Below the pieces are notes generated by a model. It did not search any database. It was not told the origin of the DNA and saw nothing but the letters and a program-made list of their open reading frames with translations. Position numbers and translations under genes: made by a program. This document shows, piece by piece, positions 15,467 to 60,952 of a stretch of 64,000 nt of DNA. Within the stretch, counting starts at the first letter, position 1, and every line of letters begins with the position of its first letter. The stretch spans positions 45,570,001 through 45,634,000 of the forward strand of contig OX485804.1 of assembly GCA_950295325.1 (NCBI GenBank), read 5' to 3'. Origin of the DNA: Polytrichum commune (lineage: Eukaryota > Streptophyta > Polytrichopsida > Polytrichales > Polytrichaceae).

Positions 15467-18400
15467 TGAAGGAGTTAGGTAGAGGATTAAAGGGGGCCAA
15501 GAGGATGTAAGCGGGGGGACCATGGTGCTACCTTAGGCTTGGGGATAGTGAATTAATTAGGTTACTACTTCATGTTAGTTTAGATACTTAGTTCATTAGT
15601 AAGCTAGGAGGACTTTATGATTGTGATGATAGAGAAGAGCGTTTATTAACGCTTGTAATATTATCGTGGAATGGATTGGTGTGCAATGATTGATGGGAAT
15701 TGTAATGGAGTCTCACGCATTTGGTATAAATGGAGTATGGAAACATGAATGTGATACCCATTCCCTCACCCGGACTAGGACGCTTAAGGGTGGGTGGTTT
15801 GGCCTCACAAAGGAACAAGACCTAGGGGTGGTCTCTAAAATGAACCAAAGTTTGGCAGCCAACTAGAACCAACCACATATGTGTTGTGATTCTATGGTGT
15901 TAGTGACTTGCTCTCCATATGGAGTCCAACTGTAAGTGAGTGTTGATCTATACTGGTCTCTTAAATCAACTGAGGTTTGGCCTTAGTCAATCAACCAGCT
16001 GGAATCAACCACATGTGCATGATAATAACAGGGCAGAACATTCTTACGACCATCCACTTGTTTAAGACTGTACATATCAAGTTGTAGATGAAAATATTGG
16101 CATGAATCTCAACAAAAATAATTGCTTATCTTCAGTGACAAATGATAGACACGTTGCCATTGATCTCTTTGAATGTTTGATGTTATGATTCATCGATTGA
16201 AGGTTGCTTTCTCGAATTTTGCCATTAGTTCGTGTTTTTTGGTTGTGGGATTTAGATGTAGGGATCATGATTTGTATGAGGGTGGCCACAAAAACCAAAA
16301 CAACCCAACTCTTCTGCCACAATGATTCCCCCATTCCAAAAACAATTTCTTATAGCCCACCCACACTTACTGGTGTGGGCCACTACACTAAATAAGATAT
16401 TTAGTGTTTGATACACTAAATACGAACGCATACACTAAATATCAATAACCCTATGAAAGTAAGTAACCTTAAATGTAAACTTAAACACTAAATATCAATT
16501 ATGGTCATATGTGGAAGTTACATGTTTGAATTTAGTGCTAGTAAGGATATGTGAAAAAATGATATAATAAAGGAGGTGGCAACAAGGAAGGTTGTGACAC
16601 AATTATGTCTAACACTAATTGTCAAGGAATTGAATATTAGTGTTGAGTAGGGCATGATGGTAACAACAATAAATACAATCAAACACTAAATTCCTGGGAG
16701 GCAATCCAACCCCACTCTTCGAAAAATTCGAAGAACCCCAACTATGTGTAAACCTTCGGGTTGCGGGAAGAATCGGGCGCTCAATTTCAAATCCTAACAT
16801 TCTCTTAAAGTTTTTGAGATGACAAGAGCAGATCCCAAAAATTTCACCAACTTGCAAATAGGATTTGATACACGACGAGCTAACAAGCTTTGAGTAGAAA
16901 GTATTCTACAAGATGGATTAAAACCCTGTTTGAGGCACAATTTATATGGGTGTTATTCATTGAAAATACTATTCATAGTAACATTATTCACTAACAATAA
17001 CGACACCATCCAATACTATTTATACCAACGTCAATTTCTTCCTATTACTTAAGTTTCTTCTCGTGAAGGTAAGATAGCGGAGGCCCATATCAAAGGCAAA
17101 ATATAGATTGAAACACAACCGTGCAGTTGAATAATGTTATGAGTCATCTTTCATTCATCCCACTTACTTTACGGATAACTCTATTATGTCGTGTTGATTC
17201 CCAGACTCACAGTGCATTGCCACAATGTGAAAAAATAATGCTATGATACAATGAATGAAGAAAATTGACCACTAGTTACAAATGAACTAGTTGATGTTGA
17301 AGACTTCAACAAGAGCATTACCCCTCATTTTAGAGGAATTTATGGAATATGCTAAATTTTAATAAAGAAAACCCAAAGATCGTACAATATAACCGATTGG
17401 ACTTGGAAACACTAGGATCTCAACCGACTATGGTCAGAATTTCCCCAGACACTTGCTATGATGAAGGGCCCATGGATGTTTTATTTACTTGTTTATTTAT
17501 TCATTCATTCATCTGCAGGCCTAAGGTAGTGGATGATACACTATCTTGTGCCCTCCTTGAAGCGGGAATTTTGTCTTTTGTATTTCTTCTTAGGTGGTAC
17601 ACTTAAGTTAGTTCCTAGACTATCTATTTGGAGAGCCCTTTGAGTACTTGAATATATTATTCCTAGCACGTGCTAGTACACGAGGCACCATCATTTCACA
17701 CCAATATGATGATGTGTCTCCATGTATTTCCTAGATAAGGTAGTTGTGTCTCTTCCCGACACTTTGGCGAGTTCGAGTACCCTAAGGTGTATATAATATG
17801 TGGGCATTGTTCGATTCCTTTTGTCATGTTCTCCAACTTCTACCAACGAGCTTTACACAACGAAGCTTGTGTTGCATTGGCAAATCTACGATAAAGCATC
17901 AACACAAGGTGAATTGAAAATCGGAAGTTCCTTGATTTAGTAATGGTTGTAGGAAGCGCGTGTTTGTTGATTTCTTCACATGTTTTCATGTCTTCTCAGT
18001 TGCGTTCATTGTTGAGTGTGAGGTAGTTGATATAATTTGGAGACGTGGTCTATTCTCTTTCACACATGTGTCTTTATGATGTTTGTTGTTCGATCCTCGC
18101 CTAACCAAACACAAATCAAATGCATGTGTATGATTAAGGAAAAGTAACTAAATAACACCCACATATCCTAAACGCTTCTAGCAATTTCAAAGTTGTTGTG
18201 TTATTTCTCTTTAGAGTGGATGAAATGGACTACATAATCAATCGTTCCATCAAGAGCATAAGGGTTATCAAAACACATCCCAATTTTCATTCATGGATAT
18301 GCGATCACGTCATCCACAACCCATATTATGTTTATGAGTATTATGAATGAGAACCAATTTGCCTAGGACGATGACTTGTTGCTTCCACCCTTGTCATCCA

Positions 18401-30735: not shown

Positions 30736-31714
30736 CTATTGAGAAATTTTTTTAACAACTTCTGCAAACATAGCAGCCATCCTTTCCCCACTAGCCTGTT
30801 GCAATCTAAACATTTCAAGTTCCAATTTTATGTTTTCTTGGCGTTCTATTAAATTATCTTTATGCATTGTTAGTGCAGCTTTGATTATCAACCGTTCTAT
30901 CTCAGTAGTAGAATCTGCAAGTCTATCCAATGAATCCATCAAATTCCTGTCAACCCTAGCCCGTTTAGCTGGTGTGGAATTAGTACCTTTCTCCAAAACC
31001 CCGAGTAAATTCGATGCTTGTGTTCGTGGAGTGGTGTCGTTGCTCTACTGGTCAGTTCCACTGGACGCTTCAGGATCGGTGCACTGTGGTGAGTGCACCC
31101 AAGATGGCTCACCGTTTTCATCGGCTTCCTCGCAAACATCCATCGGAGCGCTAGAAGTCCCGGTGCCGGGCACGGGCACCCCTTGGTCCATTGCTCCTGG
31201 AACACCGTTGGCCTTCGCAGTGAGACTGAGAATCTCGTCAATCTGATCGTACCATATGAATTTCGCACCGTCGTCCCGCACACCTGCACCCGTTTGGTTG
31301 TGCAATTTCTTGATCTTGGAATAGGTGCTCCGCAACTTTTCCCACTTGTCTGATAAGGACTTGACCTTCCGCCCAGACTCCTGAGGGAACTGCGTAATCA
31401 ACAGTTTGTGCACCCGCCCCCCACTGATATGATCGCATCGTGACTGTGTTGTGTGCCTCGACGTGTTCCTTGCACTGTTCCAATAAAAACCTCACAGCAG
31501 CATTGCTCCAATGCCGGTCCTGCACAACAACCGGAGCCCGTCGTGGGAGAGGAGGGGGTGGACCTGTCAACACAGAACTAACGGAAACAGAAGCAACAGG
31601 AATGGAAGAGAGTGGAACAGAAGACACCGGAGCGGAATTTTGAGAACTTTGCGTCATAACCAAGCTTGGAGGACTATTTGCTAACAACGTCCTCAGATAG
31701 TTCTCCCCTTCCAT
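30736..31714 (-). pseudogene. Harbinger-associated MYB/SANT-like (trihelix) protein
   Basis: The second protein of PIF/Harbinger elements, which helps import the transposase into the nucleus and recruit it to DNA. Minus-strand ATG at 31714 (MEGENYLRTLL), then a Ser/Pro-rich stretch and the MYB/SANT-like domain: RHWSNAAVRFLLEQCKEHVE, a frameshift near 31,420, then RKVKSLSDKWEKLRSTYSKI and GAKFIWYDQIDEILS. A stop occurs near 31,045. The C-terminal helix (NLMDSLDRLAD to FAEVVKKISQ) reads in another frame and ends at 30,736. The upstream TTTTTTTGTAG near 31,742 may be a 5' UTR acceptor. It is convergent with the transposase. Confidence 0.82.
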
Positions 31715-31901
31715 ATCGTCCAAACGTGCACTTCCTACAAAAAAAACTAATAAAACAATGCATGTACTTTCAAACCCTAGCTCAAAAACTTGCAAGTGAG
31801 TACGGCCTGGACACTCAACGCCCTGGAGTCCCTGGCTTGAAGATGCGTCGAAGTTGCAAGGACGTGTAAATTCTCCGGCACTATAATTCCGGTGCAGTTA
31901 A

Positions 31902-40563: not shown

Positions 40564-42729
40564 ATGATATGCAGGATGGGTCTTCAGATGTGCATTTCGC
40601 TCTTCCTGATGATTTCACTATCTTCTCTGGCGTTCGCTATAGTCCCAGAAACCAGTCATCTCGGTAATGTAGACCAACCAACGTTTCTGCGCCACTTCTG
40701 GTCCACATCCGACAAACACCACTATAGATTGTCTGAAGACGGAGAGGTTGCTCAAATCATATTGGACAAACAATCAGGTAATCCGTCGGATGTAGGTGTG
40801 TGGAGAGGGAAATAGAATGGGTAATTGGATAATGTGTATTTCATTACTGTACTCTCTTTGCAAGCTCCCTCAGCTTCCATCCTTTTGTAGTAGTTTAGAC
40901 TTTTGGTTGCCTGGGTGGCCCGCGTATGTTTGTAGTCATAGATATATCCTGCCGTACACCCTCATGCTCCTCTTTTTATTCCACTATGCCAACTATATTG
41001 TTCAGTGCGTCCAAATCTTGCAGTACAAACTACACCTAAATTAAGTCCTAAACTTAGTGTTCGAGGCCTTCGTACTTTAGGTAACATTACAGAGTCTGTG
41101 TGTGGCGAGTTGTCCAGTGGTTACCTTCATGCCAATCACCTGCATCATGTTAGGAGTCTTCCTGTCTCTTGATAAACGTGACAGAGCAGCAATGCACGGT
41201 AGTGCATTACAGGTAGCTGATCTGGATTGCGAACTTGTTCGTAATGTAACGTGTCTTGTCTCAGTCTTGCATGATGACTTACCCCCATGTGAGGCCTCTG
41301 TTTCTCTAGTTCAAACTGGCTATGCGTTATATTCACAAAGTTGTTTTCTACTGCCTTTGATTGTTTTTGCAGCGGCCGGATTTGCTTCCAGAACAAGGTA
41401 TTTGTTTGGGCGTATGAGTATCCAAATGAAGGTTCATGCCGGAGACTCCTCTGGAACAGTCAGCACTTTTTACGTAAGTGCATCCACCTGTTTGTTTCTT
41501 CACTGTGCTGATTATGTAGCACGGATGATTTTGTGGCAACTTAATCTGCAATGGATGTTGAAAACAGGCCAGGGTGCATGTGCTTTCTCTAGAAAGCTGT
41601 TTTTCTACCTTTGTCTATGAGCTAGTCCTTTTTCTGCTGTTACAGTAGCTGTATATTTCTGTCTAGTCTCCAGATTCTGAATTAATATGCTCTTGTTTAA
41701 CCCAAGAAATTTTCTGTAGCATATATCCCAAGTGCGCTTTTGCAAACTCGCTGCAATTTGCATTTGGAGGATTTGGTCACTGATATTCCTCTTCTCATTC
41801 CCGTGCAGACTTCCTCTTTAAGTGGGAAGCACGATGAGCTGGACTTCGAGTTTCTCGGGAACGAAGCCGGCAAGCCCTATGTTCTACAGACCAATGTCTA
41901 TGCTGCAGGTGTTGGAGATCGTGAGCAGCGTATCAGACTTTGGTTTGATCCGACAGAGAATTTTCACACCTATTCTATCCACTGGAACCAGGATATTGTC
42001 GTGTACGTCATTTCTTGGCACACACTTGTTGGTCTTCCTTATGTTTGACTATTTGTATCCCTATTAATACTTCTCTGCACTGTGGGCAAAGTGATTCTCT
42101 GGGGGAGTCTGTATTGTTACTTGTTCAATCGAAGGGTTTAGATTAATTTTAGTACACAGCCCTTTTGTCTGTTGATCAATTTGAAGTTTTCATAGAACCG
42201 CTTTATTCAATTTCGCTAACACTGTTTTGTGCTTGTGGATGCCAGCTTCTTGGTGGACGACACTCCCATCAGAATATACAAGAACTGTGAAGATTTGGGT
42301 GTTCCTTACCCTACGCGACAGCCTATGAGTGTATTTGCAAGCTTGTGGAATGGAGAAGATTGGGCCACTCAAAATGGCGCTATTAAACTGAACTGGACTA
42401 ATTCCCCATTTGTAGCAACGTACAGAGGCTACGAGGTTCAAGGATGTGAGGTTCCGTGGTATAAAGGTGATGCCGAGAAATGTATGAGTCCAGCTGCTGA
42501 AGAAATGTTAAAGAGGGTTACTATCCAGTCTTTAAGTACTCGGCAGGCAGCTCGTTTGCAGTGGGTAACAGAGAATCTTCTAGTATATGATTACTGCAAA
42601 GATATCTATCGTTATCCATCACCACATCCAGAATGTAGCCGAAATTCAGGCTTCCAAGTCATTGGTCCTCTTTGTTTATCTCACCTGGATGGTTTACGAG
42701 TTCTTGGTGCTCCAATAGCTTCTCAATGA
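40564..42729 (+). CDS. XTH: xyloglucan endotransglucosylase/hydrolase (GH16 XTH), 4 exons
   Basis: Secreted apoplastic enzyme of family GH16 that cuts xyloglucan and rejoins it to another chain (or to water), loosening and remodelling the wall. I read exons 40564-40777, 41373-41473, 41809-42002 and 42246-42729; every intron is GT-AG, and the phases join to a 330-residue product. The first in-frame ATG is 40564, with a second at 40576. A hydrophobic signal peptide covers about residues 8-25. The catalytic motif [10 protein letters not shown] is at residues 113-122 (nucleophile Glu115, acid/base Glu119). LWFDP, NFHTYSI and the FLVDDTPIR strand follow. The last exon holds the XET_C domain with its conserved cysteines (GCE, KCM, YDYC, HPEC). 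Two features are unusual: the N-glycosylation site that normally follows the active site is missing (NEA), and about 30 residues extend past the usual PEC end. The pattern is nearest to group I/II enzymes. Fold and reaction class are certain; transferase versus hydrolase preference is not. Confidence 0.93.
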
Positions 42730-44152: not shown

Positions 44153-47100
44153 TCAATGCCTCTTTGGACAGGTCAGATTCAGGCACAATTTGCTCACGGG
44201 ATAGAACTTGCTGAAAGGTTCGTTGCTGTCCTTTGCAAAGTCCCTCCGAAGCTGCTCAAAACAGATTGGACACTTCCCTTTCCTGCAACCAACCAAACCA
44301 CCACCCATGCATGGTACAATCCCGTCTCCTCAGTACTCTCCTAATTATTTTCTCTTCAACATCCAACCAAAAGAGTTCTTCAGGTCCTTCCCTGGTTTGA
44401 TTACAACATGGATCTCTGGGTTTCTGATTCCTGAAAACCAATGGCCTTCGACTGCTGAATTTCAATGCAGGTCTACGTGACTGCTGATGAAACAGACAAC
44501 ACCGTCTCTGTTTTCTGAAACTAGAACAGCTGACTTTGTCAAGTGGTGGCCTACAAAGTGCACTTTTCAGTCCAAAATTATGTCAGTAGAAGTATATGAG
44601 ACTTGGGCAACACATACTGCGTCGGTGGAAGAATCTGCAAATCTACCACAATGTACAGATTTTTTTTCCAGTTTCTTTTCCAGTGATGCAGGGTAATTTC
44701 CATTGATGGAGGATGTGTTGTCCAAATGTCATATGCTTATAGTGAATGGAGCATCTTTAGTTGACGTGGTCAAGTCTCTAGAGGGTGCGATTGGTGACTA
44801 CTTTGACTGCACATCCACACTAGAGCTCGAGTTGAGAGCTTGAGCTTGTAATTTGTGGGAGTTTGATAAGTTTTCATCCAAAGCTCAAACTATTGAGAGC
44901 TTGACCATTAATAAGATAATCAAGGGGGGAATGATACTAAACAAAGGAGAATTCATACAAATCAAAGAATGTTTGATGGTCCATTGGCTTGAAACTCACA
45001 AAATGAGAGCTCAAACTTATTTCTAAGTGACGTTGATGATGCAGCTTAGGATTTCGACCGAAACTTGTTGATTGACAAAGATCGAGAGCTTGGTTCCACA
45101 TGGAATCCGTCAGGGTGCCATCTAAACTCAAGAAGCTTGGTAAAACATTGAATTTGGAAAGTGGACTTGAGTGAACAAGCTATAAGGTAGAGGGTGCTAA
45201 AACCAACACCTATAAACGCCTCCCAATTGTCAACACTCTACAACCTTGAACCGTACCCCAATATGTACTTGTGTTGGTTGTAGGCAATGAAGGTGGGGGT
45301 CCTCATCATATGCGAGGTTGCCATACACGACGGGGCCTGGGCCTATGGATTGGTTTAAGGAGGCTAGTAGTTTTGACTTTGAATATTCATCAAATATTCA
45401 ATTGAGACTAAAAATATTTTTTCTTTCTTGATACCTATGTTTAGCCCAAAGGCTAATATGAACATATATTTCATATATCAACCACATAGCTATGTGTATG
45501 TGCAATAGCTTAAAGTGTTGGTTTAAGCACCCTCTACCTTACCTAAGAAGCTCCTCTCCGCCAACGAGAAGGCTCTTGCTTTGAGCTCTCAACTTCTCTA
45601 GTGTCAAGGGGCCTATGTTATGAACATGGAAGAAGCTCGGGGGGGGGGGGGGGGGTAGTCATTGGTTGGAGTAGCAATATACGTGTGAACAAATGATAGG
45701 GTATTTTAAAAACATGGGGGCAAAAAATTATAAATGGACTTAAGAGTAATATAGGGTATAAAAAATGACACTGGACATCTTTAAAGTACTATAGGGTATG
45801 GAATAATAGGTAATTTGGAATTATAAGTAATGCAAGCCATTTTTCTATTAACCCAAAGTAGAAATTTACATAATGATAGCATGTGAAAAAAAGAAGAGAA
45901 TTGAAAGTAATACCCCCCCTATAAAATAGTGGTTGTTCGCACCTATATCCTTAACTTTTTAACACACTGGCCCTCCCCCCGAGGGAAGAAGTAAAGATAT
46001 TAAATGGTAGATGATATTGCTTACCTTGATTCTAAGGCCTTTTGGTGGACTTTCTCATGAATGTTTTGGAGGCGGATCCGCTCATCTTTGGCTTTGCAAG
46101 ACTCCCATTTGAGCTTATCGTATTCTTCACTCCATGTCTCCATGAGCAGCCGACCCTCAGTCGAACGCTGCCAAAACCCATAGCCACATTATACGTTGTG
46201 TGCACCTATTATGGAAGCTTTGGATTTTAGTGTATGTAGAATTTGCATAACAAATTCAACGTGCATACTAGAATACCCAAATGAGGAGCATGAGAACGGA
46301 GTTTGTTATGTTTGGAGTTCAATTGAATGTCTTTTGGACATTTCTTGAAGTGAAAGTTGTAGATGACCTACAATGGTTTTCTTTCTGATATGTTCATTTC
46401 AAACTTGGATATGTACTTATACGTTAAAATGGCATTAAAGGTCAGTGCTTGGGTTGGGTGCACTCATCTTAGAGTATCCCCACACGTGGTATTACATACA
46501 CCCCTGACATCATGTCACAAACTTGAATGTACAATTCTACAAAGTGGTTGTCCATGTGTTCTCACTATCACTGGATTGAAGGTGCTCTTTGTCCTTCAAC
46601 TCTTCCTCACCTTCAAATAAGTGATATTGATATATATATAGGATAGTCTCAACTCTTCTAAAACATAATCAACTATCAATATAACATAAGTTGTTGACCA
46701 AATAAAAGTGTAGCTTTTTTAGAATCAATATTCAATTGAAAATTCCCCTAAGTAGAGCCTTGTGTAATGAAAGGAACAATACCTTGTCCCATGATAGTGT
46801 TTGGTGTACAACATGTGGTCATGCCCTTAAGCCCTTGTGGTGAAGGACGAGCAGTAGGTGGAGTTTAGGTATAACACCTTGTGAGGACATCTACCACGTC
46901 GTCTATAATGTACATCTTTGGCCGCTCTACTGGTCTCAGGTATGGATGCACCATAATTTCCCCTTCATGACCACTTCATGGAAAGGGAGGAAGACCATGT
47001 TGGGAAAACCATCTATTCGGTATCACACAATCCAATCGGTGGATTCCTCTACTATTTTAAGATTTTGTATGGAATCTAAAAAGTTGACACATCACATGTT

Positions 47101-48497
47101 TGGTTTTCAATATCAGAAAAGGAGTAATAGGAAGAAGGTGAGCAATCACTACCAACATATAAATCCTAGTCTATCGTCTAACATGGTGGTAGATTTGTAG
47201 ATTTTCTAGGGATGTAGAATGAGTTTTCAGTGATGCATGTCAATTGCCAAGAACCCATATGCTTGTAGTTCACTAGGGAGATTAGAAGGTTGATGAAGAT
47301 GGAAATTCAACAAAAACACACACACACACACACACACAAGTGGAGAGGGATAGGGACTTCTCTTCAACTGCTGTCCTGACACTATAAGCATATGAGTCCT
47401 AGGCAATTGACCTACGTCACTAGAAACTCGTCCTATATGATTAAATTGTTTGCAATTCTAGCATAGTGATGGATTTACATTATTCTGTCATCAACATGGA
47501 ACGATTGCGTAGGACTTGTATGCTAGTAGGGTGATACAATGCGCCACACAATTTTTTTGATTCCTTATGGGGTGTTGATAAATTTCCTAAAATTTGAGGT
47601 TGCCATAGCTAGACTTGATAATACAACATGCCACAATACATGGTTCATAACATTATTCAGATTCATAACAATGTTATGTGAGACCGACAATATTCCATAG
47701 AACATTCCCCACATTCATACCAAACAGGGAAATATACAAAAATATTCCATGGAATATTGTTATGGATGTGAATGATGTTCCAAGAAAGCTTAGAAACATT
47801 TGGCCTGACGACTAGTACCTTGTACTTCTTGATGTTTTTATAGTAATTGGTTCTTTTCATTTGCTCGAGGTTGTCCCGACACATGCGCTCATACTCCTTT
47901 TTCTCCTGCTGTTTCATGGTCTGCTGTTCCCAGCGTGTGTTCCTCAAGTTGGCTGCTTCCCTTTGGCAGCCCCACATGCACACTGAAGTTGGTGCCGATT
48001 GCAATTGCCATATTGAAATGCGACCTCAAAGACACACACTATTTGCATCTTGTTTGGGTAGAATACTACACTACAAGCATATGAGTCATGGGTAATTGAT
48101 GAGCCGTGCCACTGAAAAATATATGAAAATCTACACTGATGATAGGTATGCATATTTCGTATGGTGATGCATGAGAATTATGAAGGATTTCATGTGTCGG
48201 TAGTGATTATAATAGTTGGTTGAGTCAACTGTATAACCATTAGTGGAAGCTCTAAATTTGGGTTGACTCACTGAAACTGTGTCCTCACTGCAAGCATATG
48301 AGTCACGGCAATTATCCCGCATTGTCGGTGATAGATTCATATTATTCTTTTTGCGACGCATGACGATTGTCTAGGACTCATATGTTGGTAATGCCTTTTA
48401 ATAAAATTTCTTATGATCACACTGCCTTCAAAAATAAATAGTAAGGGTTATGTGAGTTGCAACGTCTAAGGTAGACATACCCAAAACCAACACAAAA

Positions 48498-48550
<53 letters not shown>

Positions 48551-51500
48551 CTCCCACATGTCTTGGTGCAATTTGGTTGTGCGGAATAAATCAGTCCCGT
48601 CTAGTGACCTTACATGCAGCCCTCGGCCTCAACATTCTACACACAAGAATGCTTTCCACTCAAAGCAATCTACTATACATAACCATTTGGCGCTTGAGGC
48701 GATGTTTTAAGGTTGGGGGAGAGAATGACCTTCCTAGAGCATGACCGTTGATCTTCATTATTATAGGGCCCAAAGGAAAAGTCTCCAAATGGTTATGTCC
48801 AATATAATTGCTTGAGGTTTCCTAGTTCATAATCTAAATCCAACACTATGTACCAACATCATGCATTTGAACTGGAATAGTGTGATGACCCACTATTCCG
48901 GTGTGTTTACCTCCCCCCAACCCTCTAGACTTGGAGATGCCCACTAGAATTATATGTGGTTGTTGAAATGACTTCTTCACATTTTATAGTAAAGTAGAGT
49001 CTTCAAGGCTTGAGGGTGAGTTGTACATCCTTATTGCCAATGGCCATGTGAATGTCACGCCATGGATAAGATTTTCTATCATAATGGATTGTTTGAGAGA
49101 CATAGAAATAGTACTCCCTCCATCCCAAAATGATTGTCCTACCCCCGAAGCTTTACAACAAACATTTTTGGGATAGAAAACTCTGGGGGGTAGGACAATC
49201 ATTTTGGGACGAAGGGAGTATCATGTTACTCGACCACATTTATGTGAAGTTGGGGGTAGGGTAGATGGGTCTTAAATGATTACTTTTCACCAACTAGCCC
49301 CACTTTTTCTAAGATATGAAACATGTGATTAGTACAAGATGGTTAGAAAATTCAAGTCAAGGCCGTAGTCACTTTCCTCATAATTTCCAGAGCTCATATG
49401 AAAATCTTATTCATTAATCAAAGCAAAGGTTGTCATGCTCATTATGTGGTCACATGGATCTTCTCAATTATGTTGACTATTGAGTTTAGAGTGGTTGTCA
49501 TAGTATGAGCACTTAGTCCAATCTTTTTTAAACAATGTATTTTTGGTAACCGCTCTTAGAGCCACCTAACCACACACCACTCAAATATAGGTGTATGGTT
49601 AAGATAGGTAATTGAATTAGGCATGTCTACCTTAATGAGTGAGCAGAACGTAAGACATGGAAATTGACTCCTATAATAACATACACCTCTTCATGTTGGT
49701 GAAAATCTACACTAACCTCATTGAGTTTCACATTGGTTGAGAATTTTAGGTGTACGATAAGGCTCCTTTTTTGGGGGGGGGGAGGGGCATTATGCGAATT
49801 AAGGGCCTGCCTGAGGGTTGGCATGCACATAACATTATTAAGGGCCACTTTATACTTGGGGCCGGATTGAGGGCTGGCTGGAACTCTCAAAATTTGGGCC
49901 AATAGGATCGCTCGATTTCATCAAATCGAGCCCAAGGGCTTTATACATGGGGCCGGCCCGAACACTCACTCATCCCATGTGGCATCCTAGGTGGCACAAT
50001 TTTGGCGCCAAACCATCGGGCCCTAGATGAGAGTTCGGGACGGGCTTTTCCTCGTCCTGAACTCCCATCTAGGGCCCGATTGGGCTCCTCCGTTAGATTG
50101 AGCTCATCTTGTCCGTCAATCACTACCGGGGTAAATTATATTCCTCTCTTCTTCACTCCACTCTTCTAATAACACAACAATTAGCATAAGTATGATTGCA
50201 TTAGACTAATAAGGCAACAATTAGGGCATTAATCACACACTTAAGATAAAAGTGAAACATTCAAGCATTTAATCAAGCATGTAGTATGGCTTAGGCTATA
50301 GGTTAGTCTAGTAACGCATCAATTAGCTAAAATATGATAGCATTAGGCTAATAATACAACGATTAGGGTGCTAATCACACACCTAAGATAAAAATGAAAC
50401 ATTGAAGCATTTAATCAAGCACATGGTATGGCTTAGGCTATGGGTTGGTCTAATAAGGCAACAATTAGTAATGCAACCATTGATAGTATCTTTTGTAACA
50501 TTAGGTAACATTAGGTAACATAATCATTGATAGTATCTTTTGTATATATTTTTGAAATTTTTAGTCATCTTTATTTTTTTAGTAATTGTTTTAGTTCAAT
50601 TTTGTGTCATTCTAGTTAGAAACGGTATGTTTTATGAAAAAAACAAATCATCAAATTTAGTTACCAATTTTAAATATGTCATAGGTACTGTGTATATCTA
50701 CTCATGAAAAAAAATTGATAAAAATTTGACCCATTTTGGTGGTGCAACTTACCAAAAGAAGATTTTTTTTGGTCGCACGTGGTGTTCAACATGACAATGG
50801 AGTGATCTACCCGTGGTAAAACTCAAAAGTAATGCTACCTTTGCTCTTTTAGGAAGGTCATTCTGGGCTTGCTACTTAATGTTATGCAAGGGCTTGTAAA
50901 TTTTTTCGAGTGTTGGGTGTGGGTGAAATGAATGGTTGAGATTTATTACACCAGAATATCCCATTGGAACCCATGGTGGGAAGTTTCAACATCAAGTAAG
51001 TGGGCTTGGCTATTCTTTGTAAACAAACACCTACATTTGAATGGTGCACAATTAGGTGTGGATCTAAAAACAAGTACCAAAATGACACATGTTTAAAAGA
51101 AATTGAACTACATGCTCCAAATTTGTTAACCATTCTCAATCCAATACTCAAAATAATTTGAGGAAAGGGGAGGGGAGGGAGGGGTGGAAAAGAGAAATAT
51201 ACGATCATCTCATAAGAAAGAGCATATCATTCACTTGGCAATTGAATCTAAGACATTCATACAAATTCTCAAATTTATGAGGACAATGGCCACAAACGCG
51301 ATTTGGATTTGCTAGTCATCTTTCACGAATTGTGTGTTTCCATATGTGGTGAGAAGTGGTTTCCAAAGTGTCCATTGAGTGAGGCCCGCTTAATCACCTC
51401 ATCACGTGCCCGTCCTTAACGATGGAAAACTCTGTAAGGTAGAAATACCATAACCCCGTTAACCACCCTCTAGCTGTGCACCAGACCGGCGTCATAATGG

Positions 51501-54500
51501 TGAAGTGCCATTTCTAAAACCGATCATGGCTCGGCGGCAACTTCAATGTGTGTACACTTAGTGTAGCCAATGGGAGTCAAGTGTTAATGTACTCACGAGG
51601 TAACCGATTTAGGCGATGTTCTATATGGAACTGCGGATCACCGTGCTCGGTGTAGGGAAAATCTAGTGAACGAGTAGGGGGTTGGACAACTTTCCTCTTT
51701 GAAAAATTGTAGCATTATTTATATAGGGCAGAAAAACATGAAACAACTTGCATTCTTCATGAATCCTTCTCGTCTATCTTGGGAAATGTCTCATGATTGT
51801 CAGACCAGATGTTGAATGCGAATCACCTTATTTTCATGGGAAGAAATTGACACGAAGGAGGAGGAGGAGGAGGAGCGGTGTTCTTACTCTTCTTTCTTGA
51901 TGTTGTGGGCCATTCTTTGGAACTGCTCGCGGACGGCCTCCACTTCCTGCAGCCAAATGAGGCGGTCCCTCCGAAGCTTGTCTTCGATGGCCACCATCTG
52001 CTCCTTCACTTTCTTCTTTATCGCCGGCTGGTACCCGTTGATCCTCCTCAAATCCTCTTGCCACACTTCCGCTACTTCATGCATCTACTAATCCAACACC
52101 ACGCGTCTCAAGCTCAATCAATAATACCAATCCAGATAGATAGAAACTCCAGTCCCTTTTTAGCAAGGGGCCGGCGTGAATAAAGTGTCCGTTCGTAATG
52201 CCAATGAACCCGATGCCCACTGGACAAGGGGATATTGGGACAATACTACTCCCCCCTTTCGAGGATGGACACTATAGTGACACACTATACTAGTCCCTAG
52301 CTAGCCACTAGTGCCTTGAAGATACCGGACATGGTATCCCCCCAAAGGGCTTTGAGGTACCCATACAACAAGGTCCAAGGACCCCCCACCATAGTTGGGT
52401 GGACTAAGGTGGTGAGTACCACGCCGGCATGGGGAATAGAACCCACAACCTCCTCATTGGGGGCCATGAGCCCTAACCACCAAGCCAAGGCCCGTGGTGC
52501 CCTAATACCAATCCATCATGCACGCTACACTAACAAGTAGTGTGTTTAGTTAGTGTCACCTATTCTAGTTGGTGTTGCTCACCACTAATTGTAGTGGTCA
52601 CCAACACTAGATGTAAACCTAACCTCGTTTTCCATTCGTCGTGGATATTTTTGGGCATTGTAGATTTGCAATGCTCATATTATTGTCATTCAAGTCTCAG
52701 TTGTCTATGAGATCATTTCATTATGGAAATGCTAGGATGTCGAATACACCACAAGCGGATGAGCGAGAAGGAAGTTGGGGTGACAATATTTGTAAGCTTA
52801 TTCATAAGAAGTGTCGTTAGAAAAGATTACCACATTGACATAGAATACCATACGACACTAAACAACACAATGTTTAGTGTAGTTTTAAGCCTCTAGATTG
52901 GGATACAACAAATTGTTAACTTACCCCCGCGCAAGGGGGGGGGGGGTGGACTTTTCATACCACGTATGAACTAACATGAGTGTAAGAAGGGGTTTTATTT
53001 GAAGTGTTACAGTACATAGTATACATAAGGGAGAGGTACTATTTTTCTCTGGTGTGTACATTTCAAAAGGTACATTTCAAAGGATGGTGAAGTAAAGGTA
53101 GGTGTATAAAAGGGGGCCCTAGGGTTTAGAGAAAAAATTGACAATAGATGTGTTAGTTCCATCCAATTCACGTTTTCATCCATTATTATCATATGGTAAT
53201 TGTCCTTCATGACTGCCTTGTGCATTCTTGTTGGGGTTTGGATTTAGGTTTTAGGTTTTTACAAACTAGAGGCTCATGGGCTCCCTTGATTTTCGCTCTT
53301 TGGACTGTGGCCGAGCTATTGTGCTCCCTTGTCTTGTTTTCTTGATGCAATCGTTGAGTTACATGCTTTGGAATGGAAAAAATGTTGAAATGACTTTCTT
53401 ATTGGAAAGTGAAAGTGGATTTTATATGGAATAAGGGCTTATTTGATTTTGAGATTTACATTTTGTATATGTAGTGGAGACATTTATTACATTACATTGA
53501 AAAACTTAGTATAAATACATGAGTCCATTTTCTAACCTACCGTTAGTATGTATACATTTATTTATTTATTCTATAACCTTCATATATATAGGGGGTTTAA
53601 TTTCAAAACGACCCATGCACATCATTTAGGTTTCCAATGAAGAGTGCACCCTTAGATTAGCCTACAACCAAAAACATGTTTTTACACCAATAGCTGGCTT
53701 AGAATTATTGGCATCCATGCTAAGGGGTCTACTATATATTTACCTTCTAGAGGTTCATGGTTGTATCATCCCAACTTAGTCTCACTAACTAAAACGAGGT
53801 ATTTGAAACTATTTCTGTTATCAAACAAGTTGAATAACGTTTTTTTTGCACTACAACAGATTCCCAAAATTTTCATCTTCAACTGTCATGGATTGTTACT
53901 TGGATAGCTTCCAAGCTTCAAGCATAAAACCTTAAAAGAATAAGCACACATATACGCATTTCTTAATTATGGGTCTAATTCATGGTGCCTTTATGCCACA
54001 ATGAGTTAGGAGTACGGAACCATAGATTCCAATTTGATGGTAGTTAATGCATTGTGCATCTCCACCACATTGGTTTTCTTGTATTCAAAGTAACATGTAT
54101 TGTACAATGTTGTGATGACCCGAACTTGTTGCTTTTTGAGTACTTACTCGAGGGTACAAAATTTTGAAGACATTTTCAACTTTGTGCATGAATACGTGAC
54201 AAGTGGCAGCACTATTTGATCCACCTTATTTCCAAACTACTCTCAAATTTACATAAGATTATTCATCATGTTCACACATCTGTGTGGGACTAAGGGGTTG
54301 TTTACATCATGGATCGTGAAGGCGTCCCAAGGCCTTGTAAAATCTGTGACTGGCTGTAGAATCGTCCCGGGACCACTTCGGTTTCCACCAAGGAAAAATT
54401 GTCAGAGTGACCATGAAGTTTGAGGTCCCCAAAAGACATATTTTAAGGCATACATTATCCACTGACATGGTCCAAGGGGTTTTGCGGTGGGAGAGGCAAA

Positions 54501-57500
54501 AGAGGTGCTCTGGTAGAAAAATACAAGGGCCCATGGCAAAGAAAAATTGTTATAATAAAATTTTAATGAATTTTTTTGGGGAAGAGAAGATGAAGACAAG
54601 AGAATGGTCACACGTTTTTTTTCCCTTCTGAAATTGCCCTTTTTGGACATATATTGAAATAAAATAAAATCAGCACATTCACTTTTTGGTGCATGGTCAT
54701 TCCTCTTGTTCCACACTTGGTTTACACCTAGCGAGGCACCCAAAGGCTTTGTAAATTGATTTAAAAAAAAAATTAGACCATGGAAGCTGGACCATCAAGT
54801 CGGATCATGGAAAAAAACCATCTTTCATGGTGTGACTTCATGGTCCACGGTGTAAACCGGCCCTAAGAATCTACGAGGCATTGTTGGCTTGCATCTAGGT
54901 GGGACCTACTATGGACTTTGACACATCTTTCTTCGGAAGCCTTGTTGTGGCCCTGGGCTAAATCATATTTGTGTTCAGCTGGGCCCCACCCCTCCCAAGC
55001 CTACTTCATTGCATGGTCTACCTGCCCTACACTTGCGTGGGAACTCTTCCCTGTTGGGAACCAATGTGACAATACCTGGTCACTTATGCAACTAAGCTCC
55101 TTTAATATGCACTAGTAGAAAACATGGTAAAAAAGAACCGCAGTCGTTTTCCCATTGCGGTTCTTTTGACCACCCTGATCTGCAGTCACCAAACAACTGC
55201 GGATTTGTTTTTTTGGTTTTACGACTGAAAATTTGAAATTTTGGGGGCTTATAATATACCGCTAGATAGGTCTTGAAAATACCTTTCCAACGGTGTATTA
55301 CATGCCCCCATAATTTCAAAATTGCAGTCATAAAACCAAAAAAACAAATGTGCAGTCGTTTGGTGACTGCAGATCAGGGTGGTCAAAAGAACCGCAATGG
55401 GAAAACGACTGTGGTTCTTTTTTACCATGTTTTCTACTAGTGATGTGATTATCTTCATCGATTAACTTGAGAATAATGAAAGTGATGTCAACTTGAATAT
55501 TTGTAATTATGACCGGGTATTGTCACATTGGTTCCCAACGAGGAAGAGATCCCATGTAGATGTGGGCAGGAAGACTGGGCATCGAAGGAGGCGTGGGAGG
55601 GGCAAGCCCAACTGAACATAGATGTGATCTAGCCCAGGACCTTGCCGTGTATGTGAAACCCAATGGACACAAAAATCTATAGAAAGAGAACAAACGTGTG
55701 GGGGTTGAATAATCAATCTTATGAATTGTTTTAATGTAAACATTGTGCACACCAATTGTGCACAAGTGGGAGCACGTTCAATACATCCAAGAAGTTTAAT
55801 GAGTTGAATGTGCCGATGGGAAGAGTCATAGAACACAAGGGGAAGGAGGGAGAGAGAGGGAGAGAGAGAGAGAGCTAACTTTGTTGTCTTCATGAAACGA
55901 GCGTTGGACTTCGAACTTGCGGTCGACGGCCTTGAAGTTGTTGGACCAGCGTGTCACAATTTTGGTGATTTTATTGAACTTGCTATTATCAAACAACTGC
56001 TGGTCATACACCAACTCCTCCTCCGGCAACAACTTCAATCCCGACAAATTCTTCACGTCCCCCCACCTATATACATGAACACAAGGTGTTTATATAAAGC
56101 ATGCAAGATTGCCTTGTTTTTGAGATTTATGCAACATGACACTTACCGCGTTACCAAGTCACATGCTATCAATGCACATGCTCACCGTGCCCAAGATTCT
56201 AATGATTTCATGAGGTGTTGAATACCACCGTAATATGTGCACCTAAATACATGCAACATTCTACATGACATTGCCACCTTGGCTTTTCAAACATATTATG
56301 ATATGTAAAAGCATATGTTCATTGTGCCTACAATTCCAACATTTTTCATGAGATTTCCGGGGCCCATTTATCTGAGATTTTGTAAATGAGGCACCTAAGT
56401 CACCCATGTATGAAGGAATTAAATAGTAGACAAAGACAATTCCAATCAAACCTACACCTGCTTTCCTTTAATTACAACATCTAGTACGAAGCTCCAACCT
56501 TCGTCCCATTTTCCGATTGAAGACTCAAGATTCCTGAGCAACATTACCTTGTATTGAGGCCTCATTTTATGAAGGCCTTCACATGTGCTATGCTAAGAAA
56601 ACAACCTAAGGTAGATGAGGCTGATTCGGTTGGCTTCCTTAATTGGACACCTATTTTTGGTTTCTAATCGGTAGTACAGTTGCTCTAATTTGGTGGGTGA
56701 ATAATACATGTTGATTTAGCCGCCACCTTGATGATATTTGGGTCAGTCACCTTTGCAACAAAAATCAAATTACACCCACCATCTTGCATAAGTAGGAGTG
56801 CTACCCACCGAGCTATGACACACTTGCTTTTTTGTGGGCGAGATGGGTTACTTAGGAGGTGGCATGTGGCTGCAAGTGCCGACCAACTTGTATTGTGGCT
56901 ATTTTATAATGAAATGCTAGTTCAAAAACAATTTATTTTTACTCATGACCACTTTAGAGACATGACACAATCAATATTGGCATTAAACTTTGTTTTCATT
57001 GGCAAACGATTTATGTAGAATTTGCTAGTGATGTTGTCCACTTGTACAACGTTGAACGATGGAGGACTTCCCCCTTTAACACCAAATTGGGAAGCAAAGA
57101 ATCTTTGATTCTAGAACCTAGATCAACACCTTCCTCAACTCCGATTTATATAAAGCTTAGCTTCATAAACCCATGTTAGGTAGTCTAAGAGTGGGTTTAC
57201 ATTAGTCTGGTCCAAAGAAAGTTGGGGTCCATAAACCCCTTCATGAACCTTTTTGCACTCAAGATTGGACCCAAGGTTGAAGTTTGGTTTCTCAAATTGG
57301 GTGGGGTGTTCCCTTTGAGTTAGAACCTCCTAGATTTGATGGGAAAATGGTGCCACTTGGCGCCACTTCATTCTTACATACTTTGAATTCTTACATACAA
57401 CCAATAAGATTGCATGATTTCGGAGTTTCTTTTAGTCTTGGACTATGATATAAAACCACCCCAAGTTTGTATGCAAGAGTGAAACATTTCACATCCACGC

Positions 57501-60500
57501 CCACCCTAGGTTGGTGTCATCTCTCTCTCTTGTAAGGTCAACATGCCTAGTTCGGTCACAACTTCTCTTAAACAGACACTTCCATTTGAGTGGTGTGCCT
57601 AGGTGGTGGATCCAAGAACATACACCAAAAATACATGTATTTAAAAGAGATTGAACTATGTGCTCAAAACTTGTTAGCCATTGTAGTCAACATAATTGCC
57701 GGGGGGGGGGGGGAGGGAGGGGGACTTGTATATGGTCATTTAATAAGAAAGAAGATCTTCACCTTAATAATTAAGAAGATATTCATATGAGCTCCATAAA
57801 ACATGAAGAAAATGACTTAAGGCACGAATTGGACTTGCTAAGATTTTACCTCACACTAATTACATGTTTCATTTCCTACAAGATATAGGTGCAAAGCTAT
57901 AAGAGTGAGTATTCATGCAAGCCACTTGCCCATCAAATTCTGGTGGGCATACAAACAAATGTAGATGGACCTCAGGGGGTTCACTTGCGAAAAATCGTAG
58001 AACAACGTGCGATAAAAAATAGGGTCTAATATATTCATTGTAGATAAATTTTGTAAAAACTTACATATAATATAGGGGGTTTTAAAATAATGAAAAAGGA
58101 TTACATGTAAAATACCATCACATATAAATAGTGACAAAGGATTACAAGTAAAATACCATCACACCTTTATTTTGAAAAATACCATACCTTATAATCTTTT
58201 CTGCAAGGTAAATAACCCCCCAATATATAGGTCCCGAACGCACGTGTATGCAAACTATAAGAGGGAGTGAACCCCCCGAGAGATGGACTCCTGTTGGGTG
58301 GTGTTTGTTGTGCCAACCAACTATTACTATTTCAAGTGTCTAATGGACTCATGGAAATCAAACAACCCATGGCCACCATCCTCCACATTCTAATAGGCCG
58401 CCATAATGTGGTTAGTTAGTTGCTACAAGAGAACACCTCCAACACACTATTATCTAGAATCTAGTGGACGAGTGACCTACTTGAAAATCACCCTAAATTT
58501 CCAATTAGAGCCCGCTTACCTTAATTACATGGTGTTGGGTTGTTGTTTACCTTTTGAGTGTGAGGGCAAGCATGTCACTCCGCTCTTGTGGATGGCCACC
58601 TTGAAGATTGTTTATGAGCTCTCGGTGGTCTTTGCAATGGAATCCGAGCTCCATGTGTTGGCCACCATGCTCCAGCCGACATGTATCCTTCAGCACCTTG
58701 TCGTTAATGTAGCCAACCTGCATCATCGACGGTTTCAAAACCACCGCAATTAATTAACTCCGGGACTTCATTCTTGATAAGAAGAAGAGAAGAGAGAAGA
58801 GAAGAAACACTGACCATGTGATCAGCGTGAATGGAATGCCCGTTCGACCCACCCTTGGCATTAAACCCTCAGGGCATAATATCAGTGGTGCAAGACTACT
58901 AACCCCTCTCGGGGTGGGCACTATAGTGACACTCTATACTAGTTCCTAGCTAGCCACTAGTGCCTTGAGGATACCGGACATGGAATCCCCCCAAAGGGCT
59001 TTGAGGTACCCATACAACAAGGTCCAAGGACCCCCCACCATAGTTGGGTGGACTAAGGTGGTGAGCACCACGCCGGCACGGGGAATAGAACCCACAACCT
59101 CCTCATTGGGGGCCATGAGCCCTAACCACCAAGCCAAGGCCTGTGGTGCTTCTTGATAAGAACATACAAACTCCGATCACGTTAAATTGGAGAAGGAGGC
59201 GGGCATGTGTGTGTTCGGATACTTTTTCTCTCCGCACTCACGTCTCGTACGATATGAGATGGATGATTATAGTGTGAGACGATTAGCAAATCCAAATCGT
59301 GTGTCTATAGCGACATTACTTGGAAACGTGGTCCCAAAACTCACTTCCCATTTGACACGGGCGGTCGTCAACACGTGACTCCATTGACAAGAGTCGATGC
59401 AGTCTATGACAATTGTAGATTGGACTTGACGCTTGTCAATGCGGTCATGTGTTAATGACCGCTTGTGTCGAATGGGAGGTGTGTTTCAAGACCGTGTTGT
59501 TTAGTAGTGCCATTTGTCTCATTATGTTTGGAGCTAGGTGAATGTCTTATTCATTTTAAAAGTGGAGATTCTCCTGCTCACTAAGTGGTCATATTATTAT
59601 ATCCCCCCAATCATGTTGATTATTAAGCCTAGAATGGTTAGCATGTTTTAAGCATGTAGTTCAATCTCTTATAAACACATGACTTATTAGTGTCCATTCT
59701 TGAATCCGCACCTAACCATGTGACACTCAAATATAGGTGTCCGGTTTAATGTTATGTTTCATTTAGCTATGTCTATCTTATATGGCATTTTTGGAACACA
59801 TTTTATGTGCTTAAGAAAGATGTCCTTGAAAGAAATCTATGAATTAAAGGGATGTGAACCCTAAATGTGGCGGAAGAGAGGGTCCAAACCATGAGTGTAG
59901 GGAATCTTCTTGTAGAATGTTCTTTGTTCACTACATCAAATCCTAAGAAAAACCCTCATGGAAATTCCAATTGTGGGTGAAGAAGGGAGGATTCATGTGT
60001 TTAGGTCCAACTTGAGTTTGAGTCAATGAAACAACCCCGAAATACACACCACCCCACTCCATGTTGACTGTGCTAACGTCACTAGGTTATTATGCTAAGT
60101 TTAAAAGAGGGTTTGTGATTTTAGCTACACAAATTTCATTCGAAAAACCCTTAAAGTGCCTAAATGTTATGGATGAACTCATTCTCACCCCTAAAACCCA
60201 CTTGAAGCTCACTTGGGAGGGTCCATATTCCGTTAAACCACAAGGATCTATATTAGACTCATATATACCTTATATGGTAGATGGGTCTTGAATAGTTACC
60301 TTATCCGACTAGCACTTTTCCTAGGATATGAAACACACAATTAGTACAAGTGGGTTACCAAATCCAAATTGAAGTCATAGCCACTTTCCTCATAATTTTT
60401 GGAGCTTGTATGAATATCTTCATTCATAAATCAAAGTGAAGATCCTTGTGCACATTAAGTGGTCACATAGATCCCCCGAAGTACGTTAACTATTGAGCTT

Positions 60501-60952
60501 AGAACGATTATCATATTCTGAACACTTATTTCAATCTCTTTTCAACACATGTCTTTTTGGTATCCGCTCTTAGAGCCACACCTAACCACATACCACTCGA
60601 ATATAGATGTCTGATTAAGACAAACACAGTAACTGATTTAGGCACGTCTACCTTATGCATAGGGAAAGGGTTGGTGACCGACCTCCGTGGCGGGGAACAC
60701 AAAGATGTTGTGCTTGTCATGATCGGAGTCTCCGGTGCTATAGACGGCAAGAACCTCTTTGAGCCGCGGCCGCTTTGACTTGTCGTGGGACACACAAGCA
60801 TGGCGGCCATCCGAGGCGATCCGGTGCTCTTCCTCGGGGCAAATGATGCGTTCCACTTCGCTCAACTTGTTGTTCTCCACGATCAAGATGTTGGGTTTCC
60901 ACTCCAACCTTGCTTCCACACCACCTTCACTCCCCACACCATCCTCTCCCAT
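44153..60952 (-). CDS. seven-exon gene for an unrecognised charged coiled-coil protein (411 codons)
   Basis: Exons on the minus strand, 5' to 3': 60952-60683, 58717-58551, 56066-55880, 52084-51888, 47960-47819, 46167-46025 and 44282-44153. All six introns are GT-AG, and donor and acceptor phases match at every junction (0, 2, 0, 2, 0, 2), giving 1,236 nt with no stop before the terminal TGA. The ATG at 60952 follows an in-frame TAA, so it is either the true start or exon 1 is internal. Exon 1 looks globular (LEWKPNILIVENN, HNIFVF). Exon 2 is rich in His and Cys. Exons 3-6 are strongly charged and helical (WLQEVEAVREQF, QQEKKEYERM, ETWSEEYDKLKWE), suggesting a coiled-coil rod. The last exon has CPIC and CLNLTC cysteine pairs. 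No catalytic motif is recognised. A scaffold or cytoskeletal role is inference only. The first and last exons are the least certain. Confidence 0.6.
45183..45543. mobile_element. MITE-like element with AAGGTAGAGGGTGC ends
   Basis: Inverted terminal repeats of about 26 bp (AAGGTAGAGGGTGCTAAAAC and the inverse at 45515-45540). A related but longer sequence starts at 63352 and runs to the window end. It lies in intron 6 of the coiled-coil gene. No clear target duplication. Confidence 0.6.
45639..45655. repeat. poly-G tract
   Basis: G17, in intron 6 of the coiled-coil gene. Further G or C tracts of 10 or more are at 22668, 27971, 49773, 52935 and 63641. Confidence 0.9.
47316..47338. repeat. (CA)n microsatellite
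   Basis: About 11 CA units, in intron 5 of the coiled-coil gene. Confidence 0.95.
47646..47779. mobile_element. small foldback MITE (CATAACATTA family), copy 2
   Basis: Left end CATAACATTATTCAGATTC, with a diverged right end. AATATTCCATGG-type stems pair in the middle. It lies in intron 5 of the coiled-coil gene, about 40 bp from the donor of exon 5. Confidence 0.65.
48500..48548. repeat. (CT)n microsatellite
   Basis: About 24 CT units, in intron 4 of the coiled-coil gene. Confidence 0.95.
49114..49218. mobile_element. Stowaway (Tc1/mariner) MITE
   Basis: 105 bp beginning CTCCCTCCATCCCAAAATGA and ending with the matching inverse, flanked by TA on both sides. This is the classic plant Stowaway terminus. 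Arms are about 36 bp, including GATTGTCCTACCCCC. It lies in intron 4 of the coiled-coil gene. Confidence 0.93.
49250..49640 (+). repeat. poly-C family repeat, copy 4
   Basis: Longest form: TAGATGGGTCTTAAATGATT, AAACATGTGATTAGTACAAG, ATGTTGACTATTGAG, CCACCTAACCACACACCACT, GGCATGTCTACCTTA. The poly-C position is not expanded. Confidence 0.75.
50015..50080. repeat. GC-rich hairpin, 28-bp arms
   Basis: Left arm 50015-50042 (ATCGGGCCCTAGATGAGAGT...) and right arm 50053-50080 pair with about two mismatches around a 10-nt loop. It may be the centre of a MITE. Confidence 0.7.
50473..50815. mobile_element. hAT-type MITE, truncated copy in reverse orientation
   Basis: The reverse complement matches the copy at 29518 over most of its length (TCGCACGTGGTGTTCAACAT, AGAAACGGTATGTTTTATGA). 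The right end finishes ATCTACCCGTG, but the left terminus is missing. The left edge shows a short internal duplication of CATTGATAGTATCTTTTGTA (about 50477 and 50527). Confidence 0.75.
51000..51370 (-). repeat. poly-C family repeat, copy 5
   Basis: Reverse orientation. GTGCACAATTAGGTGTGGAT, ACACATGTTTAAAAGAAATT, then a purine-rich GGGGAGGGGAGGGAGGGG where other copies have the poly-C/G tract. Confidence 0.65.
52135..52502 (-). mobile_element. tRNA-derived SINE, full length (copy 1)
   Basis: 368 bp on the minus strand, starting GGGCACCACGGGCC. The A-box-like TGGCTTGGTGG and B-box-like GGTTCTATTCC have tRNA-like spacing. The 3' end is a TCTA repeat. It is flanked by the exact 13-bp duplication TAATACCAATCCA (52122-52134 and 52503-52515). 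It sits 50 bp upstream, in the sense of the gene, of the acceptor of exon 4 of the coiled-coil gene. Short ORFs inside it are not genes. Confidence 0.92.
54294..54863. mobile_element. Harbinger-type MITE, family 2
   Basis: 570 bp with termini GGGGTTGTTTACATCATGG and GGGCCGGTTTACACCGTGG (reverse complement), flanked by TAA (54291-54293 and 54864-54866). It lies in intron 3 of the coiled-coil gene. A likely decayed relative is at 25381-25674. Confidence 0.78.
54949..55640. repeat. imperfect inverted duplication flanking the CACTA MITE
   Basis: 54949-55083 (CCCTGGGCTAAATC to GTGACAATACCTGGTCA) is present in reverse complement at about 55516-55640 (GACCGGGTATTGTCAC to GATCTAGCCCAGG). The CACTA MITE at 55110-55442 lies in the spacer. 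Confidence 0.75.
55110..55442. mobile_element. CACTA-type MITE, near-perfect hairpin
   Basis: Starts CACTAGTAGAAAACATGG and ends with its reverse complement, the hallmark terminus of CACTA (En/Spm) elements. It is flanked by the 3-bp duplication ATG (55107-55109 and 55443-55445). Arms of about 130 bp leave a short centre, so a transcript would fold almost completely. It lies in intron 3 of the coiled-coil gene. Confidence 0.93.
57535..57870 (-). repeat. poly-C family repeat, copy 6 (G13 tract)
   Basis: Reverse orientation. AGGTCAACATGCCTAGTTC, ATGTATTTAAAAGAGATTG, GTAGTCAACATAATTGCC, then G13 at 57701-57713. Confidence 0.7.
57971..58280. mobile_element. hAT-type MITE, related family member
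   Basis: 310 bp with termini CTCAGGGGGTTCAC and CTCGGGGGGTTCAC (reverse complement) and internal ACGTGCGATAAAA, as in the copy at 29518. It is flanked by the exact 8-bp duplication AGATGGAC (57963-57970 and 58281-58288). It lies in intron 2 of the unrecognised coiled-coil gene. Confidence 0.9.
58784..59149 (-). mobile_element. tRNA-derived SINE, full length (copy 2)
   Basis: 366 bp, nearly identical to copy 1 over the 5' 230 bp (58919-59149) but with a diverged 3' part and a TTCTC-type tail instead of TCTA. It is flanked by the exact 13-bp duplication TTCTTGATAAGAA (58771-58783 and 59150-59162). It lies in intron 1 of the coiled-coil gene. Confidence 0.92.
59311..59514. repeat. foldback hairpin with about 78-bp arms
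   Basis: CACTTCCCATTTGACACGGG near 59340 pairs with the inverse near 59470. GGCGGTCGTCAACACGTGAC also has its inverse counterpart. It probably represents a small MITE; target duplication not found. It lies in intron 1 of the coiled-coil gene next to SINE copy 2. Confidence 0.6.
59570..59780 (+). repeat. poly-C family repeat, copy 7
   Basis: ATATCCCCCCAATCATGTTG, then AATCTCTTATAAACACATGA and CACTCAAATATAGGTGTCCG. The C tract is only six bases. Confidence 0.7.
60285..60657 (+). repeat. poly-C family repeat, copy 8
   Basis: Nearly the same layout as copy 4, ending GGCACGTCTACCTTA about 26 bp from the donor of exon 1 of the coiled-coil gene. The C tract is five bases (GATCCCCCGAAG). Confidence 0.75.

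Follow-up and report, generated by a model that had tools for sequence, protein, structure and literature searches.

The gene on the minus strand of the window, the 64,000-nucleotide stretch of Polytrichum commune DNA analysed here (C2:45570001-45634000), is best read, with reasonable confidence, as coding for a divergent, fast-evolving SGS3-like protein of about 522 residues, in which a zf-XS finger would be followed by a degenerate, RRM-like XS region, a charged region and a CPxC end. By analogy with SGS3, which contributes to the amplification of RNA silencing in plants, such a protein is probably an RNA-silencing factor. This reading was reached by comparing the predicted protein with that of a second copy of the gene on contig C7 and with sister proteins of the XS family from the same genome.

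Seven minus-strand frames between positions 44153 and 60952, predicted earlier to join in phase into 411 codons, were all recovered (Table 1). They are separated by six GT...AG introns with phases 0, 2, 0, 2, 0 and 2, and a recount of lengths, phases and joins gave an E1-E7 frame of 411 sense codons plus a stop, with that stop as the only one. The seven-exon observation is thus confirmed, as one multi-exon plant nuclear gene. The GT-AG bounds described for the frames hold at all six introns and fail at the 5' boundary of E1, which opens with ATG and has no preceding AG acceptor where it was originally drawn. Two acceptors fit E5: position 47942 gives 406 codons including the stop, and position 47960, 18 nt upstream, gives the 411 sense codons and reproduces the spacing of the C7 copy. 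Exons E3-E6 are rich in charged residues, in keeping with the charged rod-like part originally described.

Table 1. Exons of the gene and repeats in its introns. Positions are those of the window unless marked C2; counterparts are given in L009, the C7 locus; a slash marks a splice junction.
Feature	Position	Strand	Content	3' end	C7 copy
E0	C2:45636287-45635948	(-)	From the frame's ATG; about 2 kb past the window end; zf-XS-type finger		
E1	60683..60952	(-)	Putative XS-like region start, W-K-P-N-ILIVENN ... NIFVFPATE	Donor GAG/GTCGGT, phase 0	L009:2760-2987 (start 2760 or 2764)
E2	58551..58717	(-)	VGYINDKVL..., putative XS-like region end	Phase 2	L009:4209-4357
E3	55880..56066	(-)	Charged part begins, KITKIVTRWSNNFKAVDRK	Phase 0	L009:6659-6860
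E4	51888..52084	(-)	Rod segment with the highest conservation, EDLRRINGYQPAIKKKVKEQM...IWLQEVEAVREQF	Phase 2	L009:7377-7573
E5	47819..47960	(-)	Poorly conserved charged segment; acceptor 47960 or 47942	Phase 0	L009:8107-8236
E6	46025..46167	(-)	Charged segment WSEEYDKLKWESCKAKDERIRLQNIHEKVHQKALESR, equal in length in the C7 copy	Phase 2	L009:8789-8931
E7	44153..44282	(-)	C-terminal KGKCPICFEQL...	Stop	L009:9346-9433
238-nt SINE-like repeat	52263..52500	(-)	E3-E4 intron; second copy at 58912-59149, E1-E2 intron		
333-nt hairpin MITE-like element	55110..55442	.	E3-E4 intron; second copy at C2:45635564-45635900 (L023), just inside the E0-E1 intron		

Six matching phases alone are weak evidence, because exon boundaries can be chosen to fit; the earlier view that a chance join is unlikely stands through the C7 copy, which has the same exons and phases, rather than through the phase argument. 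A protein search of the genome (408 Mb, 64 contigs) with the spliced query without E5 returned the six window exons of the query and four same-order matches at C7:19169280-19175431, for E4 (E 4.9e-16, 55% identical), E1 (E 6.0e-8), E3 (E 0.002) and E6 (E 0.010). Read by eye, the C7 locus holds all seven exons in the same order; all six phases agree with those of the window gene, and the frame stays open throughout. The two proteins are 39% identical when the upstream exon E0, described below, is included. Across 447 aligned codons, the residue is the same in 170, and differences at codon positions 1, 2 and 3 number 221, 157 and 264. The NG86 method gave dN 0.63 and dS 1.79, a dN/dS of about 0.35 that is only rough because dS is near saturation. 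The window gene has a GC3 of 0.70 and the C7 copy one of 0.49, against an overall GC of about 0.40 nearby. When the genome was searched with the C7 protein, these two loci were found together with one weak match, C4:12384337 (E 0.79); no synteny of the two loci was established outside the gene. A fortuitous join of frames, or a pseudogene, is suggested by some poor donors (GTCGGT, GTTAGC and GTACTA) and is hardly credible given the C7 copy, in which exons, phases and open frames recur, and the pattern of codon-position differences.

The copies are not conserved evenly. Three core stretches of E1 and its junction with E2, W-x-P-x-ILIV-x-N, PRLK...LAVY and PA-x-x-VGY, are identical in both, which argues that this region is under constraint. 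E2 is poorly conserved between them, and the His/Cys-rich character ascribed to this exon is present in the window gene and absent from the C7 copy.

The gene extends beyond the window. A frame upstream of E1 in the C7 copy (L009:615-1121) matches C2:45636087-45636269 (-) with an E of 2.6e-12; this match shares the strand of the window gene and lies past the window end, 5.1 kb upstream of E1. The open frame there reads MAESRRGIKRRNTF, then CALC...ALLIHA...HRGYFRALKEAL, and was taken as exon E0, so that both copies carry an upstream finger exon. E0 ends in the donor GGGAG/GTAAAA in phase 1, and a matching phase-1 acceptor, ctatgggag/AG, is found at 60945, preceded by a CTAAC that we take to be a possible branch site. 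The joined E0-E7 frame gives 522 residues with no internal stop. In the C7 copy the E0-E1 junction fits in phase 0 (AAT/GTATGT to AAACAG/ACA); since the phase is 1 in the window gene and 0 in the copy, this junction deserves less confidence than the remaining six. The ATG at 60952 is doubtful because of the phase-compatible acceptor at 60945 and because E1 of the C7 copy, as read, has no in-frame ATG ahead of the conserved part; it is probably not the initiator, and E1 begins at 60945 if joined to E0. The gene therefore covers at least C2:45614153-45636287, about 22 kb, with at least eight exons. The earlier description of seven exons over 16.8 kb was right about the exons and short of this eighth, 5' one; further exons may also be present. 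With the same introns, the C7 copy takes up about 8.6 kb from finger exon to stop.

The exons are widely spread because the introns hold high-copy elements. The 238-nt repeat gave 1054 first-look candidates, and among the 40 scored, 39 besides the query were 99% identical over the full length. It contains TGGTGGTTAGGGC and GGTTCTATTCCC, presumably tRNA-like A-box and B-box stretches, and has the appearance of a SINE active until recently; in the window, neither ARAGORN nor Rfam reported a hit. The hairpin element has 165-nt arms that are 91% complementary and CACTAGTAGAAA-like ends; it gave 1517 first-look candidates, and the best other copy among 40 scored was 98% identical. Just upstream of E0 in both copies lies a very common repeat (L009 ~615-760, L023 ~2660-2860), also seen at window ~17280-17450, with 9380 first-look candidates, of which 150 were scored. 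Matches between window 17.3-17.9 kb and the C7 locus were considered as exon fragments and rejected; they were assigned to shared repeat DNA because the spliced CDS and protein searches found no match there. Two neighbouring features were also observed in the window. A gene of the xyloglucan endotransglucosylase/hydrolase type has its last exon at 42220-42729 (+), on the opposite strand and about 1.4 kb past the end of the window gene (Pfam Glyco_hydro_16, E 1.8e-13; XET_C, E 3.3e-13). Overlapping frames with KSLSDKWEKLRSTYSKIKKLHNQTGAG lie at 31045-31897 (-) and gave a weak Myb/SANT-like Pfam match, below cut-off (E 0.016).

The original prediction could not assign the product to any family, and with respect to Pfam and the PDB this holds. 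No Pfam family was found over cut-off for the spliced protein without E5, E0-E2, the 522 residues, the C7 copy or single exons; matches to zf-Di19, WWC1, Occludin_ELL, DUF7351, MINDY-3/4, DUF1319, Paramyxo_P, Folliculin and others (E 0.026-5.7) fell far below cut-off and were set aside. The XS (PF03468) and zf-XS models gave no match at E up to 10 in E0-E2 or in the full 522 residues; as positive controls, two sister proteins were recognised by the XS model (E 1.2e-13 and 2.2e-31) and one of them also by zf-XS (E 3.3e-5). A single-sequence search of the PDB returned 1wxl (E 0.13) as the sole match up to E 10, which was not accepted, and a search with the two-sequence profile returned none. An SGS3-type protein of the same genome matched a single PDB chain, 4e8u (E 0.012). 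In a prokaryote genome collection, 113 stretches fit the pattern and none encodes a relative. AlphaFold modelled E1 alone with a mean pLDDT of 57, too low for the model to be used. The gene looked family-less largely because its first exon falls outside the window: once the E0 finger is included, the protein does align with zf-XS/XS proteins of the genome.

This finger, CALC...FKGIEALLIHA-x10-HRGYFRAL, is of the zf-XS type. The pattern C-x2-C ... [FY][KR]G-x2-[AP]L-x2-HA-x10-HR[GSM][YF], formulated after the sequences had been inspected, is common to both copies and to C2_16 and C2_39, the products of two SGS3-type genes in the same genome (C2:16.85 Mb and C2:39.39 Mb), and HA-x10-HRGY also occurs in a third sister protein, C2_61. 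Profile comparison by hhalign was carried out with E0-E2 of the window and C7 proteins as the query; in this profile and in alignment A1, the N-terminal ~40 residues contributed by the C7 copy are a frame of a high-copy repeat and probably non-coding. Against six zf-XS/XS proteins the match was colinear, with a probability of 88, a P of 3.1e-6 and a score of 46.3, and the reversed six-protein template scored 12.6. These six represent six of the seven XS loci, the weak C6:4220874 being left out, as was the zf-XS locus C6:23535432 from all templates; the sister proteins were joined by eye with approximate splice sites, and the C4 template was without a finger.

Column shuffles (n=150) were used against a four-protein SGS3-like set and against an XS-only subset. 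With the four SGS3-like templates, E0-E2 scored 42.2 (best of 150 shuffles, 21.6), the E0 finger alone 32.0 (20.9) and E1-E2 alone 24.9 (18.7). With the XS-only subset, E1-E2 alone scored 19.7, a value reached by 2 of 150 shuffles, and E0-E2 scored 19.3 (P 0.041); with the six-protein set, E1-E2 alone scored 15.3 (P 0.15). BLASTP of E0-E2 against C2_61 gave an E of 4e-4 in a single comparison, in which only the finger aligned. The finger thus carries most of the zf-XS/XS signal; its assignment to the zf-XS type is well supported by motif and profile comparison, and an XS part in E1-E2 is only suggested. Within the putative XS-like region, W-x-P-x-ILIV-x-N and F-P-A-x-x-VGY would answer to WPP-x-x-x-x-EN and F-P-x-S-x-GGY of C2_16; the GMGN and GHRG blocks of SGS3, present in C2_16, were not recognisable there.

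That Pfam calls neither XS nor zf-XS, and that the XS evidence taken alone is weak, would suit an unrelated plant family whose finger had converged on the zf-XS type. Convergence is nevertheless unlikely, since the colinear match of finger and XS part lies far above all 150 of 150 shuffles and the HA-x10-HR spacing is the same in the SGS3-like sisters. The finger also bears on the proposal that the product acts as a coiled-coil protein in the flagella or cytoskeleton of motile sperm. The long charged part would fit such a protein, and flagellate sperm are plausible in this plant since PACRG-family genes (PF10274) are present in the genome, where all eight matches were over cut-off. Nothing ties the gene itself to flagella: no axonemal chain was found in the PDB with the single sequence or the two-sequence profile, 1wxl not being axonemal, no flagellar Pfam family matched, and the finger points to zf-XS proteins. 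The sperm premise is thus reasonable, and the flagellar or cytoskeletal role, being without sequence support in the Pfam and PDB searches, is very improbable. One of the PACRG-family genes lies at C2:45724760-45726042, about 90 kb from the window, and more matches lie on C1 near 29.97-30.12 Mb.

The preferred, SGS3-like reading can be set against known XS-family systems. SGS3 (SUPPRESSOR OF GENE SILENCING 3) combines a zinc finger, an XS domain and a coiled coil and is the RNA-handling partner of RDR6 in secondary siRNA synthesis, according to passages of PMC5333915 and PMC3935573; the latter describes XS proteins as plant-specific, and a passage of PMC5907777 reports SGS3-like proteins also in charophyte algae. 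Sources differ on the XH domain in SGS3, which is said in part of PMC6631971 to be found there as well, against a single XS domain in the description in PMC3935573. In the present genome, Pfam gave 13 matches to XS (7 over cut-off), 4 to zf-XS (all 4 over) and 11 to XH (8 over). The window gene resembles SGS3 in the order of finger, putative XS-like part and charged rod, in HA-x10-HR and [FY][KR]G-x2-[AP]L, and in having no XH match. It differs from SGS3 in being unrecognised by the Pfam XS and zf-XS models, in lacking the GMGN and GHRG blocks, in its extra C-terminal CPxC and in the 5-kb intron that parts the finger exon from the XS-like exon.

Among the sister genes, C2_61 (C2:61.47 Mb) shares an HA-x10-HRGY-x-RA finger, and its XS domain starts WPPVLVLEN; unlike the window gene, it is matched in full by Pfam XS (E 1.2e-13). 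The ~14.5 kb downstream of C2_61 showed no recognisable charged-rod exon, CPxC or RING, and neither a RING nor a charged-rod exon was recognised past the C4 XS gene; a loose RING-pattern match at C2:61478553 and a C-x-H-x2-C match in L028 were dismissed by eye. The IDN2/FDM proteins of RNA-directed DNA methylation (XS-coiled coil-XH) have the zf-XS finger ahead of XS, the order proposed for the window gene, but their finger is CPFS/CPLS with a longer HA-HR spacing. XH (PF03469) is absent from the window protein and the C7 copy, and neither locus appears in the 11 matches from the genome, evidence against the IDN2/FDM branch.

The C-terminus had been described as Cys-paired. It does contain Cys, with KGKCPICFEQL in E7 against KECPVCLESF in the C7 copy, which stops soon after; CP[IV]C is all that the two copies share of the E7 Cys, and the last Cys pair is not conserved. 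The 10 kb that follow E7 and the 3.7 kb that follow the copy contain nothing that convincingly completes a RING (eight ligands, C3HC4/C3H2C3), and Pfam found no RING in the full 522 residues. Neither a C-x-H-x2-C 6.9 kb downstream of E7 nor a CPQC frame near window 42088 was connected with the gene. In Selaginella, a zinc module is described at the end of an XS protein: XP_002979112, according to a passage of PMC5907777, has a C-terminal RING and no zf-XS, whereas the window gene has a zf-XS-type finger and, of a possible RING, one CPxC shared by its two copies. Because a C-terminal RING is reported in that protein, E7 is possibly a decayed RING.

On the mechanism of the SGS3-like protein, we infer a coiled coil, RNA binding, dimerisation, a polymerase partner and a silencing role by analogy with SGS3. 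The XS-like region would bind RNA duplexes with 5' overhangs, and the charged rod, presumably a coiled coil, would dimerise the protein. The dimer would then stabilise the RNA or pass it to an RNA-dependent RNA polymerase as a step in making secondary siRNAs; alternatively, the protein may modulate this process. A rather unlikely alternative is that the protein derives from a zf-XS ancestor and has lost the RNA function of SGS3, keeping the finger with a degenerated XS part, so that rod and CPxC would serve as a protein-protein scaffold or a competitor of SGS3. The strongly conserved finger beside the weak XS part, and the retention of CPxC where E2 is poorly conserved between the copies, are consistent with this; the E1 core stretches, the same in both copies, argue for a region still under constraint and so against it.

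It is conceivable, and put forward here tentatively, that the two copies form a new, Pfam-invisible branch of zf-XS proteins in which the SGS3 finger was kept, the XS part was remodelled and a C-terminal zinc segment was gained, acting as a cofactor or an antagonist of secondary siRNA production. No description of this variant was found among open-licence PMC papers. A diverged SGS3-like pair beside SGS3-type genes would mean that the Pfam models understate the breadth of the family, and the pair may tell where in the XS fold changes are tolerated. As a 22-kb gene whose 5' exon lies past the scanned window, it also gives an example of how a family can be missed.
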